Below are positions 7,974 through 33,466 of a DNA stretch of 38,300 nucleotides, piece after piece; position 1 is the first letter of the stretch, and each line of letters starts with the position of its first letter. The notes below the pieces were generated by a model. The model was not told where the DNA came from and made no database searches. It saw only the letters and a list, made by a program, of their open reading frames with translations. Made by a program: the position numbers and the translations under genes. The DNA comes from a virus, in the IMG/VR virus record IMGVR_UViG_3300027985_001043, positions 1 to 38,300 of that record; one strand, 5' to 3'.

Positions 7974-8834
7974 GTGGAAAGAATTATACAGGGGTTTGAA
8001 CGTATTGTTATTGCTTTTGAGCGCATGGCCGCCGCTGCCGAACGTAGCGCCGCAGCTGCAGAGCTGCAGGCGGGGGACATTAAGCGCCAGGCGGACGCCG
8101 TAGAGCGGGAATACCCCGGCCCTGGTCTTAATCAGGTGGCCGCCCCTGGGACTCCCGCGCCCCCGGTAAACCCCCCTGAACAAACCCCCACCCCTCCGGC
8201 TGCCGCCCCATCCACCCCTCCGGCTACCGCCCCGGCTGCCGCCCCGGCTGCCGCTCCGGCCACTCCTCCGGCCACTCCTCCGGCTACCGCCCCGGGCGCT
8301 CCTGCAGCTGGCACCCAGGTCCCCGGCCTCGAAACCTGGAACCCCTACACGGACCAAAAGGTAACTGCCCGCTATAAGGAACCCAAGGGAACTATCATGC
8401 GTAATGAGCTTGTCCGCCGTGGAGTGGAGGGGACGGAGAAGCTTACAGGGCAACAGCTCCACATGATGCTTTTGAAAATGGGACCGGAGGCCCCTGGTGC
8501 TCCTGCAGCTGGCGCCCCTGGCGCTCCTGCAGCTGGCGCCCCGGGCCTTCCTCCTGGCCCTGCAGCCGGTGCCCCTGGAACTCCCCAGGCCGCCGCCCCT
8601 GCTATGCTTCCGCCGGACCAGATTACCCTGGACAGCGTCCGGGTGGTTCTTTCGGACCTCATGGCCCTGGGAGGGGCTGCCCGTGATGAAGGCCTTGGGC
8701 TCTTGCACTCCGTTGGGGGCGTGGAGCGCCTCACGGACGCCACTACCGGGGAACAGCTTATCCCGGCGGCAAACGTGGTCCCCCTCTACTACGCGGTAGT
8801 CTCCGCACGGTCCCGTTATGGCGCAGCATACTGA
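7974..8834 (+). CDS. Modular protein with Pro/Ala-rich linkers (replication-associated)
   Basis: 286 residues from GTG 7974 behind AAGGAG. Four parts are seen: a short helical N-terminus rich in Ala/Glu (~1-45); a disordered Pro/Ala/Thr linker (~55-115); a compact central segment (~118-165) with RNELVRRGV and QQLHMMLLKM, loosely like a SAP-type DNA-binding unit; a Gly/Ala/Pro linker with GAPAAGAPG repeats (~168-210); and a C-terminal domain (~215-286) matching a widespread phage pattern (L-x-x-V-R-x-x-L, G-x-x-x-G-L-x-L-L, S-V-G-G) seen attached to phage recombination or ssDNA-binding proteins. It overlaps the DUF2800 gene by 17 bases. Likely an adaptor that tethers replication or recombination partners; the domain calls are tentative. 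Confidence 0.7.
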   Translation: MERIIQGFERIVIAFERMAAAAERSAAAAELQAGDIKRQADAVEREYPGPGLNQVAAPGTPAPPVNPPEQTPTPPAAAPSTPPATAPAAAPAAAPATPPATPPATAPGAPAAGTQVPGLETWNPYTDQKVTARYKEPKGTIMRNELVRRGVEGTEKLTGQQLHMMLLKMGPEAPGAPAAGAPGAPAAGAPGLPPGPAAGAPGTPQAAAPAMLPPDQITLDSVRVVLSDLMALGGAARDEGLGLLHSVGGVERLTDATTGEQLIPAANVVPLYYAVVSARSRYGAAY

Positions 8835-10014
8835 CCCAAGCCCAAGCAAAGGGGCCAGGCGGCTGGCCTGCCCTGGCAGCTATCGGATGGAACGGGGAAA
8901 GCCGGACATATCAGGACCGGAAGCAAAAGAAGGGACCGCCGCCCATTACCTTGGAGAAATTTGTTTACGCCACGGCCACCAGGCGGAGCAGTACCGGGGC
9001 CGGAAAATAGTAGAGGTCCAGACCGGTGTTTCCATGCTGCAGGAAGGGAGCACCAGGAAAAAGGACTACTGGGAGGTAACGCGGGAAATGGTGGAGGGCG
9101 TCCAGGTATATCTGGACGTCTGCCGGTCCCATTGGCCAGGGGCCTCTCAAGTCATGATAGAGCATAGGGTCCATATAATGGAGGGCGTCTCCGGAAGTAT
9201 GGACCACGGCGCCCTTTATGCAAACGGCCCTTTATTCGTTGATGATTTAAAATATGGGCGTATCGCCGTGGACCCGGTGGGGAACGTCCAAGAGCTCATG
9301 TATAGCGTGGGGGCCCTGCAGGCCTCCCCGTTTCCCCATACGGACGTCCACTGTACTATCATCCAGCCGCGGGGGACGGACCCCCAGATAGTACGGTCCT
9401 GGAGCATACCGGCCCGGGAGGTTATCCAGTGGCGGGACCAGGTCCTTATCCCGGGCCTCCGGGCGTGCTTCCTTCCGGACGCCCCTCTAGTAGCCGGTGA
9501 CCATTGCCGCTACTGCCTGGCCCTGGACTCATGCCCGGAAGCGAACAAGGGCAAAATGCTGGCCATTGCAGAGCTGGCCACTATCCCCTTGGATAACTTA
9601 AGCCCCCTGGCCTTGTCCAAGCTTTTGGACGTCGTTAAGCCAGTCCGTGGATTGCTTACTCTGATAGAGGAGGAGGCAAAAACAAGGCTTGAAGCGGGGG
9701 AGCACATCCCCGGGTGGAAGCGAGTAGCCGGGCGCGGTTCCCGCTCCTGGGAGAACGAAACGGACGCGGAGGCCCTGCTCTACTCCCAGGTGGGGGAGCA
9801 TGCCTACAACAAGAAACTAAAAACCGTAGCCCAGGCGGAGGGAGCGCTCAAAGACCACGGGCTTACCATAGACATACTGGGACCCCTGATAAAAAAGACT
9901 CCTGGCCAAGGCCAGGTGGTAAAAGATACGGACGGGCGCCGGGCCCTTCCTTCTTCCGCGCAGCAGGCTTTTGAACACGTCGCCCCTGTCGCTAACCCTT
10001 ACGATATTGGATAA
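8818..10014 (+). CDS. DUF2800 protein, Cas4/RecB-like PD-(D/E)XK nuclease
   Basis: 398 residues. The N-terminus fits DUF2800: a conserved cysteine (C18) followed by E38-G-T-A-A-H. Then comes the nuclease core: SGSMD (D129), VDDLKYG (D142/D143 and K145), and a Q-E-L-x-x-Y motif downstream. A C-x2-C-x6-C set (CRYCLALDSCPE) near residue 235 together with C18 could bind an iron-sulfur cluster, as in Cas4/AddB-type nucleases. Such proteins are exonucleases of phage replication and recombination modules. The next gene is the matching DUF2815 ssDNA-binding protein, a known gene pair. The start overlaps the preceding gene and has only a weak ribosome site, so coupling is likely. Confidence 0.88.
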   Translation: MAQHTDPSPSKGARRLACPGSYRMERGKPDISGPEAKEGTAAHYLGEICLRHGHQAEQYRGRKIVEVQTGVSMLQEGSTRKKDYWEVTREMVEGVQVYLDVCRSHWPGASQVMIEHRVHIMEGVSGSMDHGALYANGPLFVDDLKYGRIAVDPVGNVQELMYSVGALQASPFPHTDVHCTIIQPRGTDPQIVRSWSIPAREVIQWRDQVLIPGLRACFLPDAPLVAGDHCRYCLALDSCPEANKGKMLAIAELATIPLDNLSPLALSKLLDVVKPVRGLLTLIEEEAKTRLEAGEHIPGWKRVAGRGSRSWENETDAEALLYSQVGEHAYNKKLKTVAQAEGALKDHGLTIDILGPLIKKTPGQGQVVKDTDGRRALPSSAQQAFEHVAPVANPYDIG

Positions 10015-10020
10015 AATACC

Positions 10021-11043
10021 ATGGCAAAAGTTTACAGCGATTCCCTTATAACCCCCCTCCATCGTACCTGTTTCCCTGCCTTGTTCAAGCCGGACAAAAA
10101 GCAGAGCAAAGACGGCCAGACCTATGAGGAGTACAGCATCCTTATGCTGATCCCCAAGACGGACCCGGAAATAAACCGTATGTTTGACGCCTATAACCAG
10201 GTCATGACCCAGCTGTATGGTACCGACCCGAACCGCTGGCCACGGTTCAGGAACCCCACCTTTCGGGACGGAGACTCCGACCCCACTTATTTTAATCGTG
10301 AGAAGTACCCAGATTTCGGCGGTATGTGGGTGGTAAAGGCCTCCACCAACACAAAGCCCGGACTCTTGGACGAAAGAAAACAGCCCGTTATAGCAGAGGG
10401 CGTCCTCTACAGCGGTATGTGGGGCCTGGCCCAGGTTGTGGCCAGCAACTACGAGCAGGAGGGGAATGTAGGGATTAAGTTCTACCTCAACAACTATATG
10501 AAGATGCGGGACGACGCAGTTATAAGCGGGGGCGGTATGTCTGCAGAGGAGGCATTCTCCGGAGTCCAGGCGGCCGCCCCTGGTTACAATGCTGCAGGAG
10601 CTCCGGGAGGTGCTCCAGGCTATTCCGCCCCCGGAGGACTACCTGGCCAAGCTCCTGGAGGGGCTCCAGGTTACCCAGCCCCCGGTGGAGCGCCTGGCCA
10701 AGCTCCTGGAGGAGCTCCGGGCTATCCAGCTGCAGGGGGAGGAGCGCCTGGTTATCCGGCCACCGGCGCCCCAGCCTATCCGGCCCCGGGCGCTCCAAGC
10801 TACCCGGCCCCGGGCGCTCCAAGCTACCCGGCCCAGGGCGCTCCAAGCTACCCGGCCCAGGGCGCCCCTGGACAAGCGCCTGGAGCTCCGGCGGGTGCGG
10901 CCCCCGGTTATCCGGCACCTGGAGCGCCGGGCTATCAGGGAGCGCCGGGCTATCAGGGAGCGCCGGGCGGCCAGGTAGGCGCCCCGGGTTACCCTGGGAC
11001 CCCCACCGGTACCGCTCCAAACACCTTTCCCGGTATCGGATAA
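10021..11043 (+). CDS. DUF2815 ssDNA-binding protein with collagen-like repeat tail
   Basis: 340 residues. Residues ~1-175 match DUF2815, an OB-fold ssDNA-binding protein related to T7 gp2.5: N-terminal beta strands, LFKPDKKQ, SILMLIPK, PTFRDGD, then a GMWVVKAST segment and VLYSGMWG. Family members usually stop near here. This one continues for about 165 residues made almost only of Gly, Ala, Pro, Tyr, Ser and Gln in repeats such as GAPGYPAP, PAPGAPSY and GAPGYQ. The end (TFPGIG) lacks the acidic tip that gp2.5-type proteins use to recruit partners. The tail should be disordered; its function may be multivalent contacts or condensation. It is not true collagen, as Gly is not every third residue throughout. 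Confidence 0.9.
   Translation: MAKVYSDSLITPLHRTCFPALFKPDKKQSKDGQTYEEYSILMLIPKTDPEINRMFDAYNQVMTQLYGTDPNRWPRFRNPTFRDGDSDPTYFNREKYPDFGGMWVVKASTNTKPGLLDERKQPVIAEGVLYSGMWGLAQVVASNYEQEGNVGIKFYLNNYMKMRDDAVISGGGMSAEEAFSGVQAAAPGYNAAGAPGGAPGYSAPGGLPGQAPGGAPGYPAPGGAPGQAPGGAPGYPAAGGGAPGYPATGAPAYPAPGAPSYPAPGAPSYPAQGAPSYPAQGAPGQAPGAPAGAAPGYPAPGAPGYQGAPGYQGAPGGQVGAPGYPGTPTGTAPNTFPGIG
10782..10867 (+). repeat. 24-base tandem repeats encoding PAPGAPSY
   Basis: Units start at 10782, 10806, 10830 and (partial) 10854. The first two are identical and the third differs by one base (GGCCCC versus GGCCCA). Each encodes eight residues of the ssDNA-binding protein's tail. Near-identity at third codon positions means recent duplication, so copy number probably varies among relatives. 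Confidence 0.85.
10924..10977 (+). repeat. 18-base tandem repeats encoding APGYQG
   Basis: Two identical 18-base units (10924-10941 and 10942-10959) and a third that diverges after its first 10 bases, in frame within the tail of the ssDNA-binding protein. A second, independent expansion beside the 24-base array. Confidence 0.75.
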
Positions 11044-11158: not shown

Positions 11159-13501
11159 GTGCGCCGTCTAACCATAGATTTCGAGTCCAGCTCCGTTGTA
11201 ACCGACCTGAACCGGACCGGCCCGTGGCCCTACTGGATGCACCCCTCTACACAAGTCCTTTGCGTGGCCTTCAAGCCAGACGGGGCTATCCCGTGGCTAT
11301 GGTTCCCGGGCCAGGATATCGGCGCGGTAAACTATGCCATAGAGCGGGCGGACCAGGTCATAGCCCATAACGTACAATTCGAGCTTGCAGGGTGGCATTG
11401 TAAAATGGTCCCCCTCTATGGCGCCGTCCCTATCCCCTTCCACAAGGTCCGCTGTTCTTCCTCCCTGGCTGCCATGTACGCCTTGCCCAGGAGCTTAGAC
11501 GGGGCCTGCTCCGCCCTGGGCCTCCCAGTACAGAAGGACAAGGCGGGCCACGCTCTTATGCTCAAAATGTGCAAGCCCAGGGCACCAAGAAAAGCAGAGT
11601 GGACCCAGTTAGACGCACAATATGGCCACCTGCAGGAATACCAGGGGCTTAGAAACGCATACCATTCCGCTAAAAAGGATAAGCTCTTGGCCATGTGCTA
11701 TTACGCTATGGTCCACTGGACGGAGGAGTTCAAAAACTTTCTTTTGTGGCATGAGTCTCCGGAGGAGCTGCAGGCTCTTGGCGCTTACTGCCTGCAAGAC
11801 GTGGAGGCGGAGCACGCCCTGGTGGACTACCTGGGAGAACTCCCGCCCATGGAGCTGGAGGTTTTCCGCCACGATATCATCATAAACACCCGGGGCGTCC
11901 AGATTGATACGGGAATGGTGGCCAATGCCATACGGATGATAAGGGAGTATGAAAACCGCCTTCTCCTGGAGCTGGAGGCCCTTACCGGCGGCGCCGTAAG
12001 ATCCCCTAAACAGGTGGCCGCAAGTAAGAGCTGGCTGGCCGCCCAGGGCGTGCACCTTGATACCCTGGATAAGGCGGCCGTGGCGGCTGCCCTCAAGCTG
12101 GACCTTCCGGAGCATGCCCGCCGGTTCTTGGAGATCCGCCGATCCCTGGCTAAGAGCTCCACCGCCAAATACGAAGCCGCCCGGCGTATGACCTGCCAGG
12201 ACGGGCGCCTCCGGGGCTTCGCCATGTACCACGGCGCGGCCACTGGGCGCTTTACCGGTAAAGGAATGCAGCTGCAGAACTTGCCCCGGGGTATTTTCGA
12301 CCTGGAAAAAGACGAAGACGCCCGGAATTTCTGGGAGGCGGTCGAAATGGTACGGGCCGGAAATTTGGACCAGCTCATAGAAAAATTTGGGGACCCCATG
12401 CCGGTCCTCTCCTCCCTTATCCGGCCGGTAATCATTGCCCGCCATGGCCATTACCTTATCGTGGCGGACTTCTCCGCGATAGAGGGCCGGGGCCTGGCGT
12501 GGATTGCCGGGGAGGAGTGGGTCCTGGATGCGTATAGGGCTTATGACCGTGGAGAGGGCCCGGATATGTATATGGTGACCGCCGGAAAGATCCTTGGAAA
12601 GGACCCCCGGGAAATAAGCAAGAAGGAACGCAAGAGCCCCGGGAAAATTGCGGACCTTGCTTGCGGCTACTACGGGGGCGTGGGCGCCATAGACCGCTTT
12701 GGAGGAAAGGTCCCGGAGGAGGAAAAAGCCAGGTGGACCCTGGAGGCCCTTAGGGAACTAAACCGCCCCGGGCCTATCTCCTGGGCGCCTGGCTACGTTC
12801 CCACCCCTGAAGAGCGGGAGCGGGCAGAGATCCCGGCCAGGGCATTCTCACACCTGGAGGCCTACCTGGATAACAGCCCCCAGGACCAGGCTACCCTGGA
12901 TTCCATCCGGGCTGCCCGGTGGCCTATGCCTGCAGACCATGAAGTATTCGAGGCCTGGGCCGGGGACGTCGTCAGGAAGTGGCGAAAATCGAGGCCAGAG
13001 ACGGTAAAGTTTTGGAAAGGGGTAGAGGCCGCCGCAATTAAAGCCGTGCAAACAGGGGCGCCCCAGACCTACGGAAAGGTCACTTTTGCAATGGACCGCG
13101 TTTTCCTTACTTGCACCCTACCCAGCGGGCGCCGTCTGTTCTATCCGTTCCCTAAAATCTTAAGCCGGGAAACTAAGTGGGGGGTCAGGTCCCAGCTTTC
13201 CGCCATGACGGTGGACGCGGAGACAAAACAGTGGGTTCGTCGGTTCCTCCACGGGGGTATTCTAACAGAGAATATCGTCCAGGCTCTTTGTAGAGATATC
13301 CTTGTGGAGGCCATGCTCCGCCTGGAGGCCCACGGGTTTCCTATCGTCCTCCATGTCCACGATGAAGCCGGAGCGGAGGTCCCGATAGGCGCTAGGAGTC
13401 TGGAGGAGTTCAAGGCTATAATGACACAAGTTCCCCAGTGGGCTGCCGGGTTCCCTATATCCGCCGCTGGGTGGGTGGGTGAAAGATACAGAAAAGATTA
13501 A
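11159..13501 (+). CDS. Family A DNA polymerase with 3'-5' exonuclease domain
   Basis: 780 residues from GTG 11159 behind AAGGGG. The N-terminal ~220 residues are the proofreading exonuclease (D7-x-E9 in TIDFES, N71-x3-E75, and a YCLQDVEAE motif near 215). The polymerase domain shows ATGRFTGKGMQLQNLPR, motif A with the metal-binding D437 in VADFSAIEGR, motif B as KKERKSPGKIADLACGYYGG, and motif C H734-D735-E736. There is no 5'-nuclease domain. This is a complete, apparently active phage replicase of the type that accompanies DUF2800/DUF2815 and SNF2 genes. About 120 residues between motifs B and C look like an insertion (TPEERERAEIPAR through the DSIRAARWP region), as seen in other phage versions. 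Confidence 0.96.
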   Translation: MRRLTIDFESSSVVTDLNRTGPWPYWMHPSTQVLCVAFKPDGAIPWLWFPGQDIGAVNYAIERADQVIAHNVQFELAGWHCKMVPLYGAVPIPFHKVRCSSSLAAMYALPRSLDGACSALGLPVQKDKAGHALMLKMCKPRAPRKAEWTQLDAQYGHLQEYQGLRNAYHSAKKDKLLAMCYYAMVHWTEEFKNFLLWHESPEELQALGAYCLQDVEAEHALVDYLGELPPMELEVFRHDIIINTRGVQIDTGMVANAIRMIREYENRLLLELEALTGGAVRSPKQVAASKSWLAAQGVHLDTLDKAAVAAALKLDLPEHARRFLEIRRSLAKSSTAKYEAARRMTCQDGRLRGFAMYHGAATGRFTGKGMQLQNLPRGIFDLEKDEDARNFWEAVEMVRAGNLDQLIEKFGDPMPVLSSLIRPVIIARHGHYLIVADFSAIEGRGLAWIAGEEWVLDAYRAYDRGEGPDMYMVTAGKILGKDPREISKKERKSPGKIADLACGYYGGVGAIDRFGGKVPEEEKARWTLEALRELNRPGPISWAPGYVPTPEERERAEIPARAFSHLEAYLDNSPQDQATLDSIRAARWPMPADHEVFEAWAGDVVRKWRKSRPETVKFWKGVEAAAIKAVQTGAPQTYGKVTFAMDRVFLTCTLPSGRRLFYPFPKILSRETKWGVRSQLSAMTVDAETKQWVRRFLHGGILTENIVQALCRDILVEAMLRLEAHGFPIVLHVHDEAGAEVPIGARSLEEFKAIMTQVPQWAAGFPISAAGWVGERYRKD

Positions 13502-32581: not shown

Positions 32582-33466
32582 ATGGCACGGACAGAAAGGG
32601 AAGTTATAGAGACAACGAGCAAAATAAGACAGTTTTACGTTTTGGATAACAAGGGCCGAAAGGTGGGGCTGCAAGTAACCCGTAAGACCGTCATTCATAC
32701 CGCCCAGGAGGAGGGGTATCTCCGGGGGTATGCTACCGCCCCCGGGACTTACTATACGGTAAAAATCCAAATGACCAGGGATGGAGAGGCTTTTGGCGCT
32801 ATCCAAGAGGAAAGGTACTTCCATGATATCGTAAAGGCCTCCGATTATGAGCGGGTAACGGTAGAGGCAAGGAGCAAGGACTACATGAAGCGGCACCCCA
32901 TGGCCGAACGCTGGGGGTACACGGAGGAGGCCCCGGTAGTGGAGGAGGCCCCGGTAGTGGAGGAGGCCCCGGTAGTTGACCCCCTGGACAGTCTGCGCCA
33001 GCAGACAAGGGCCTATGCCCCCGCCCTGGAGGCCAGGATAGCAGACCAGACAAAACGCCGTTTCTGGTTCCTCCTGGAGCAATACGGGCCCCAGCTCAAA
33101 GGGCTATACCGCCATCCATACGGCCTGGGCCAGATACTCCGGAACAGTGCACGCAGAGACAAAGAATGTGGGGTTTATTCCCTGGACCCTGACATCCTCC
33201 AAAAGGAGGTGGCCCTGGCGGCTGCCGACACTATAGCCAGGTGGGAGGACAAGATAATCTCTAAACTAGGAAAGGTCGACCGGGCCACGCTCGAAAGGCT
33301 GGACGGTTTCCGCTTCAAGGTCCGGGCGGATAGAGGGCCCGACAGGGTAGAGATACTACAGGAGATAACCCTTAATTTCTCAAAAAACGGAGTCATGTAT
33401 AACCAGTTTCCGGCCAGGATCTATGTAAACGGGAAATTCACCCCGGAGGCGGAGTACAAGGCTTAA
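32582..33466 (+). CDS. Unknown cassette protein with EEAPVV repeats
   Basis: 294 residues from ATG 32582, with AGGGGG 5 bases ahead; reading could start earlier at 32507 but there is no ribosome site. It has an N-terminal basic beta-rich domain (residues ~10-105: RQFYVLDNKGRKVGLQVTRK, with YYTVKIQMT), a linker with three EEAPVV copies (~115-132), and a helical then beta C-terminal domain (~140-294: KRRFWFLLEQYG, KEVALAAADTIARWE, and FRFKVRADRGPDRVEIL). No family recognised. It is the first and longest gene of the plus-strand cassette and the natural effector of it. Not a virion-type sequence. Confidence 0.8.
   Translation: MARTEREVIETTSKIRQFYVLDNKGRKVGLQVTRKTVIHTAQEEGYLRGYATAPGTYYTVKIQMTRDGEAFGAIQEERYFHDIVKASDYERVTVEARSKDYMKRHPMAERWGYTEEAPVVEEAPVVEEAPVVDPLDSLRQQTRAYAPALEARIADQTKRRFWFLLEQYGPQLKGLYRHPYGLGQILRNSARRDKECGVYSLDPDILQKEVALAAADTIARWEDKIISKLGKVDRATLERLDGFRFKVRADRGPDRVEILQEITLNFSKNGVMYNQFPARIYVNGKFTPEAEYKA
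32924..32977 (+). repeat. 18-base triplicate encoding EEAPVV
   Basis: Three copies of an 18-base unit (GAGGAGGCCCCGGTAGTG), the first two identical and the third differing only at its last base. They encode the linker of the first cassette protein. Recent expansion; copy number may vary in relatives. Confidence 0.85.

Follow-up and report, generated by a model that had tools for sequence, protein, structure and literature searches.

How does a phage single-stranded DNA binding protein (SSB) contact its replication partners if its C-terminus carries no acidic residue? The question is raised by one gene in the window, by which we mean the whole stretch of DNA analysed, a 38.3 kb viral record (G000) that is classed as linear and has a lambda-type terminase and portal. 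The acidic C-terminal tail of phage T7 gp2.5 is implicated in contacts with the polymerase and the primase-helicase (PMC5686142). There is no charge in the tail of the window SSB, which should therefore be unable to contact partners through charge in the manner of T7. The gene and its two parts are as follows.

10021-11043, + strand: SSB gene, ATG start, 340 aa, predicted Enc34/gp2.5-type OB-fold core followed by a Gly/Ala/Pro/Tyr repeat tail (PF10991, PHROG, AlphaFold2, Foldseek).
10021-10557, + strand: predicted OB-fold core, aa 1-179, with Phe179 as its last residue (PF10991, AlphaFold2, Foldseek, alignment).
10558-11040, + strand: uncharged tail, predicted to be disordered, aa 180-340, 161 aa with 13 Tyr and no Asp, Glu, Lys or Arg (composition count, AlphaFold2 pLDDT).

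Judged by sequence family and modelled fold, the product is a phage replicative SSB with an Enc34/T7 gp2.5-type OB-fold and is predicted to bind ssDNA. A profile search matches aa 9-181 to PF10991 (Enc34_ssDNA-bd, formerly DUF2815; E 1.5e-29, 103.3 bits with a cut-off of 26), and the core is also matched by PHROG_112/7011 (gp2.5-like SSB). The AlphaFold2 model, computed from a 62-sequence alignment, is confident over residues 1-170 (pLDDT mostly 87-98), and its strands at 14-28 and 34-45, followed by a helix at 51-66, correspond to the T7-type OB fold with a long capping helix after strand 2. Its Foldseek neighbours are 4klk, 5odl, 5odj and 4jg2 (E 3e-12 to 2e-11); the Enc34 SSB structures match at E 5e-12, and T7 gp2.5 (1je5) at E 2e-7. 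A preliminary description of this DNA had proposed a DUF2815/gp2.5-like protein whose core stops near residue 180; the profile and fold matches bear out the identity, and Phe179 marks the end of the core, Phe being present there in 211 of 219 aligned rows.

Two positions of the core, at which Enc34 contacts ssDNA in its complex structure, depart from the family. Alignment, with a shift of two in the 5odj chain numbering taken into account, places Glu37 at the equivalent of Enc34 Lys46, which is Lys or Arg in 167 of the 176 acid-tailed homologues described below, and Ser142 at the equivalent of Trp150, which is aromatic in all 176. Tyr144, two residues past Ser142, retains an aromatic side chain. 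On this alignment, the ssDNA binding of the window core may be altered by Glu37 and Ser142.

The gene lies within a replication module, and its neighbours are as follows.

8818-10014, + strand: DUF2800 (PHROG_69) exonuclease, directly upstream of the SSB gene (profile matches).
11159-13501, + strand: family A DNA polymerase (PolA), directly downstream of the SSB gene (profile matches).
7974-8834, + strand: protein without assigned function in the same gene run, with two Pro/Ala/Thr repeat linkers at 8188-8303 and 8490-8552 (repeat finding, comparison with the relative L172).

The order exonuclease-SSB-polymerase is present in most of the relatives examined, and it recurs wherever homologues were seen in many other phages and prophages. 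The linkers of the 7974-8834 protein are longer than those in L172. No second SSB that could supply an acidic tip was found among the window genes scanned against Pfam and PHROGs, a scan that covered the small ORFs in part.

The tail consists largely of Gly (44 residues), Ala (39) and Pro (39), with 13 Tyr and 9 Gln, and at 161 residues it agrees with the length of about 165 first given for it. It contains 11 GAP.Y motifs and tandem GAPxYPxx units. Successive Tyr residues are 6-20 positions apart and include a run of exact 8s, so that the regular Tyr spacing reported earlier holds for about half of the tail and not for the rest. AlphaFold2 pLDDT values are mostly 34-52; the tail is modelled as disordered, and is presumably disordered in vivo. 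The protein ends in GTPTGTAPNTFPGIG, without the [DN]P[ILV][TA]GxP tip found on some relatives. The acidic C-terminal tail by which the gp2.5 functional class is recognised is absent, with no Asp or Glu over the last 161 residues, and we therefore assign the window SSB to the fold family and not to the class of acidic-tail SSBs. A search of the tail alone against the PDB returned a low-complexity fibril, a match without meaning.

For comparison we assembled 199 non-redundant homologues from 80 genome loci, 80 viral loci, annotated phages and two class surveys (391 genomes of the class of a Ruminococcus flavefaciens genome and 83 of the Heliophilum class), a sample enriched for long frames, which were fetched deliberately. 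Tail length has a median of 12 residues. In 176 of the 199 the tail is short and its end acidic, typically DDDFLx; the remaining 23 are exceptions. The window tail is the longest of all and, in agreement with the preliminary description, has no acidic tip. The two unselected scans yielded uncharged tails of at least 40 residues at six loci (L040, L036, L023, L034, L025 and L012), and in the 391-genome survey roughly ten of about 55 matches had non-acidic tails. Of the 23 exceptions, 14 have their C-terminus at or close to a [DN]P[ILV][TA]G motif, for example QIDPITGKPLVGGIYGI (L190) and QIDPITGKPLNGGVWGI (L202, Paenibacillus phage Pd_22F).

A conserved DP[IV]TGxP tip stands on the uncharged tails of L188-L196, L202-L204, L036 and L040 (clostridial prophages and Paenibacillus/Fusobacterium phages) and is possibly a docking motif in place of the acidic tip. 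Ruminococcus and Heliophilum prophage SSBs (L034/L023 and L036) have uncharged tails that end in GGPLPF or DTLPF. The Firmicutes host SSB ends in DLPF, and mimicry of the host tip by these ends is possible. The opposite extreme is Lactococcus phage 1358 Orf27 (L223:24136-25008), an SSB of the Enc34 type whose tail is very long and strongly acidic.

The clostridial and Paenibacillus tail-swapped cores group together in a single clade (SH-aLRT 99). The window and L172 are placed by the best tree with acid-tailed SSBs, of which several come from proteobacterial phages (SH-aLRT 84-94). These core phylogenies favour a separate tail swap in the window lineage, although a single origin is not rejected in an AU test that joins the window with the clostridial tail-swapped clade (p 0.35). 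The only close relative, L172, shares 72% core identity, but its contig ends at residue 133 of the protein, and the window tail is thus known from one genome. When viral contigs were scanned with the SSB, PolA, exonuclease and TerL proteins singly, the only close relatives to appear were L172/L091, ending at residue 133; a subclade DNA pattern found L172 and three chance matches, and a GAPxYPxxGAPxY DNA pattern found no other viral contig in IMG/VR. Apart from the centre genomes, no members came to light when the planctomycete phylum and the class to which an Actinomyces genome belongs were surveyed.

Tails built of Ala/Pro repeats are present on SSBs of cultured Salmonella, Escherichia and Vibrio phages, and other viral SSBs of 240-442 aa are among the BFVD matches. 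Salmonella phage Sasha gp63 (L224:39763-40674) has 303 aa and five copies of AAPVAAPTPA, annotated by its depositors as a direct tandem repeat region, and the SSB of Escherichia phage KarinMuster_Bas82 (L228:901-1932) has 343 aa and nine copies, encoded by a 30-nt repeat; the AVIO78A SSB is likewise 343 aa long. The number of repeat units, a count of which across relatives had been suggested at the outset, therefore varies, with five in Sasha and nine in KarinMuster_Bas82 on identical 180-residue cores. Change in tail copy number thus occurs in the broader family, with Ala/Pro rather than Tyr-bearing units. The repeats of both phages run into one shared small C-terminal module that is also present in Vibrio phage SSBs. 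This module, MTxKAxGxTYExxIxxGWxDExxIxxGxM, ends the tails of L216:1474-2373 (twice), L217:1474-2205 and L224:39763-40674, and Pfam gave no match outside the SSB core for the L216 and L224 SSBs.

Three tandem arrays together span most of the DNA encoding the window tail.

10599-10730, + strand: older array, 51-bp unit in 2.6 copies, diverged chiefly at third codon positions (TRF).
10756-10865, + strand: recent array, 24-bp unit in 4.6 copies, 91% identical, encoding PAPGAPSY (TRF).
10921-10968, + strand: recent array, 18-bp unit in 2.7 copies, 100% identical, encoding GAPGYQ (TRF).

The longest exact DNA repeat in the tail is 31 nt, whereas two kinds of synonymous-codon shuffle, each run 300 times, gave no more than 26-27 nt; the DNA identity therefore exceeds the repetitive peptide's own effect, and units have recently been duplicated as DNA. 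The near-identity of the 24-bp and 18-bp units further indicates that the array is still growing, in agreement with the ongoing expansion first read from the sequence. Adjacent 51-bp units differ at 2/27, 1/27 and 11/27 of first, second and third codon positions (11/27 at third positions versus 3/54), and all unit pairs differ at 3/37, 1/37 and 15/37 (Fisher p 1e-5, the pairs not being fully independent and the bias being computed from 2.6 repeat units). This distribution confirms the annotated reading frame, and a frameshift artefact giving a wrong-frame tail is rejected, since the divergence between units sits at the third positions of that frame. The same distribution would be expected under selection for the peptide sequence, and the tail peptide is under apparent amino-acid constraint. 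Elsewhere in the window, a stretch without a clear gene contains three perfect 18-bp copies (GGAGGAGGCCCCGGTAGT) at 32923-32976.

The reading that we prefer, with a probability of roughly 0.45, is that the tail is a multivalent self-association element in place of acidic-tip docking. The short acidic C-terminal tip of most homologues has been replaced in the window lineage by a long, charge-free, Tyr-dotted Gly/Ala/Pro repeat, for which we propose a mode of action resembling that of the E. coli SSB disordered linker or the galectin-3 PGxY domain. A multitude of weak Tyr, Gly and Pro contacts between tails, possibly also with ssDNA bases or replication partners, could allow SSB-coated DNA to self-associate and so concentrate the exonuclease and polymerase without stereospecific docking of an acidic tip. 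The array would lengthen by in-frame tandem duplication, its length probably loosely constrained and its composition kept. Self-association, condensate formation and partner recruitment by the window tail are all proposed here by analogy with these other proteins.

The precedents that favour multivalent self-association are the condensation of E. coli SSB, which needs its Gly/Gln/Pro-rich linker, thought to act through pi interactions (PMC12143593), the liquid droplets formed in vitro by T4 gp32 in PEG (PMC11951158), and the galectin-3 PGxY domain, which has 10 Tyr and 2 Trp and phase separates via its aromatics (PMC7060198). It is also favoured by a charge-free tail with 13 Tyr that is the longest among the 199 homologues, by the recurrence of uncharged Tyr/Pro/Gln or Ala/Pro tails at the same exonuclease-SSB-polymerase position, by the third-position bias, and by the variable repeat number on identical cores of cultured phages. 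Against it, the Enc34 SSB is reported to be a monomer or transient dimer (PMC5686142), without the helpful multivalency that E. coli SSB has as a tetramer; when its tip is missing, E. coli SSB condenses poorly in the absence of crowders (PMC11947617, PMC12143593), and the window SSB has no recognisable tip; and the tail offers no Arg for Tyr-Arg contacts. The occurrence of the tail in one genome, with L172 ending at residue 133, the derivation of the third-position bias from 2.6 units, and the expanded Pro/Ala linkers of 7974-8834, which fit general repeat slippage, also count against it.

A somewhat unlikely alternative, and the one that survives best, is that the tail is a flexible spacer, a length-tolerant entropic bristle or linker that separates SSB-coated strands or presents a partner with a short C-terminal peptide (...TPTGTAPNTFPGIG), without any mutual stickiness of the repeats. 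The uncharged stretch of relatives often precedes a conserved end, be it DPITGxP (clostridial and Paenibacillus), GGPLPF (Ruminococcus) or the GWxDexxIxxGxM module (Sasha and Vibrio), a change from five to nine units on an identical core is expected of a spacer, and the Sasha-type linkers contain only Ala, Pro, Thr and Val, with no Tyr. The window SSB, however, has no clear tip to display, and Tyr, needless in a plain spacer, is present in nearly every one of its units (11 GAP.Y) and is kept in the clostridial tails despite their otherwise different sequence.

It is less probable still that the PPII/PGY motifs bind one specific partner, be it the DUF2800 exonuclease, PolA or some protein of the host, a multi-copy linear motif thereby supplanting acidic-tip docking. 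Such docking would suit the gene order, since exonuclease and polymerase flank every tail-swapped clostridial-type SSB examined, and the DPITGxP tip conserved in 14 relatives has the hallmark of a linear motif; PxxP docking has also been proposed for the E. coli SSB linker (PMC10164576). The window lacks the DPITGxP motif, however, no partner emerged from the analysis, and acid-tailed relatives share the same gene neighbours. Least probable is neutral slippage, in which a GC-rich repeat expanded in frame without function once the acidic tip was lost, for although the tail has perfect and near-perfect DNA units, the 7974-8834 gene of the same run has Pro/Ala linkers expanded relative to L172 and unit number is labile in Sasha-like phages, the older units differ chiefly at third positions, unlike the 7974-8834 linker (7/20, 0/21 and 7/20 at codon positions 1, 2 and 3), the tail differs from the other phage genes in its GC3 (0.53) and in its codons for Gly, Ala and Pro, similarly uncharged tails occur in other lineages, and about 0.5 kb of useless sequence is seldom retained in a replication gene of a small phage genome.

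A bolder form of the multivalent reading, which we consider unlikely as a whole, is that phages have repeatedly swapped the T7-type acidic docking tip for a Tyr-bearing, charge-free repeat that condenses SSB-coated DNA. The replication module would then owe its cohesion to a 'velcro' that phase separates and can be tuned in length, and not to tip-to-enzyme docking. The window would be the extreme case, its two altered DNA-contact positions perhaps offset by stacking of tail Tyr on ssDNA.

The novelty attached to the tail in the preliminary description stands in part: it is the longest surveyed, charge-free and Tyr-rich, but uncharged repeat or low-complexity tails recur in Clostridia prophages, Pd_22F, Vibrio phages, and Sasha and its relatives. 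Condensation of SSBs in vitro is already on record, for the phage protein T4 gp32 among others (PMC12143593, PMC11947617, PMC11951158), and DUF2815 SSB tail swaps may have been remarked on elsewhere in the literature. As far as sequence comparison can tell, the window is one of several SSB lineages that gave up the acidic tip; what we see is a familiar replication protein in a form that recurs and can be tested, and not a wholly new system, and by analogy the condensate idea is plausible for its tail. Its value lies in an acid-free phage SSB and in the recurrence of the swap in cultured, tractable phages, since KarinMuster_Bas82 and Sasha, with nine and five repeats on a shared core, allow specific docking and multivalent association that depends on length to be tested directly against each other as the mode of action of an SSB tail, together with its use by phage replication centres.

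Among known systems, the nearest is the Enc34 ORF6 SSB (5odj/5odk/5odl; PF10991), which is alike in sequence family, predicted fold and replication-module neighbourhood. It differs in its acidic tail, 16 of 29 residues of which are Asp or Glu (PMC5686142) where the window has 161 uncharged residues, and in its Lys46 and Trp150, which correspond to Glu37 and Ser142; without its acidic tail it keeps ssDNA binding and gains dsDNA binding (PMC5686142). T7 gp2.5 (1je5) shares the T7-type SSB fold, but its acidic C-terminal tail is missing from the window SSB. The SSBs of clostridial prophages and Pd_22F (L188-L194, L202, L204, L036 and L040) have the same family, operon order and replacement of the acidic tail, here by 41-141 uncharged residues rich in Pro, Gln and Tyr; most of them carry the DPITGxP tip and they form a separate core clade (support 99), whereas the window tail is of Gly, Ala, Pro and Tyr, longer, and without such a tip. 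The PHROG_7011 SSBs of Sasha, KarinMuster_Bas82 and 9NA combine a gp2.5-like core with an uncharged tandem-repeat tail of variable copy number, but their AAPVAAPTPA-like repeat has no Tyr and leads into a small conserved module. In E. coli SSB the linker is similarly Gly/Gln/Pro/Ala-rich, follows an OB fold and is needed for condensation (PMC12143593), although that protein belongs to another OB family, is tetrameric and keeps an acidic MDFDDDIPF tip. Finally, in the galectin-3 N-terminal domain an aromatic residue comes after each Pro-Gly repeat (PGxY), charge is low and phase separation is driven by the aromatics (PMC7060198); the protein is otherwise unrelated, and the resemblance is one of composition only.
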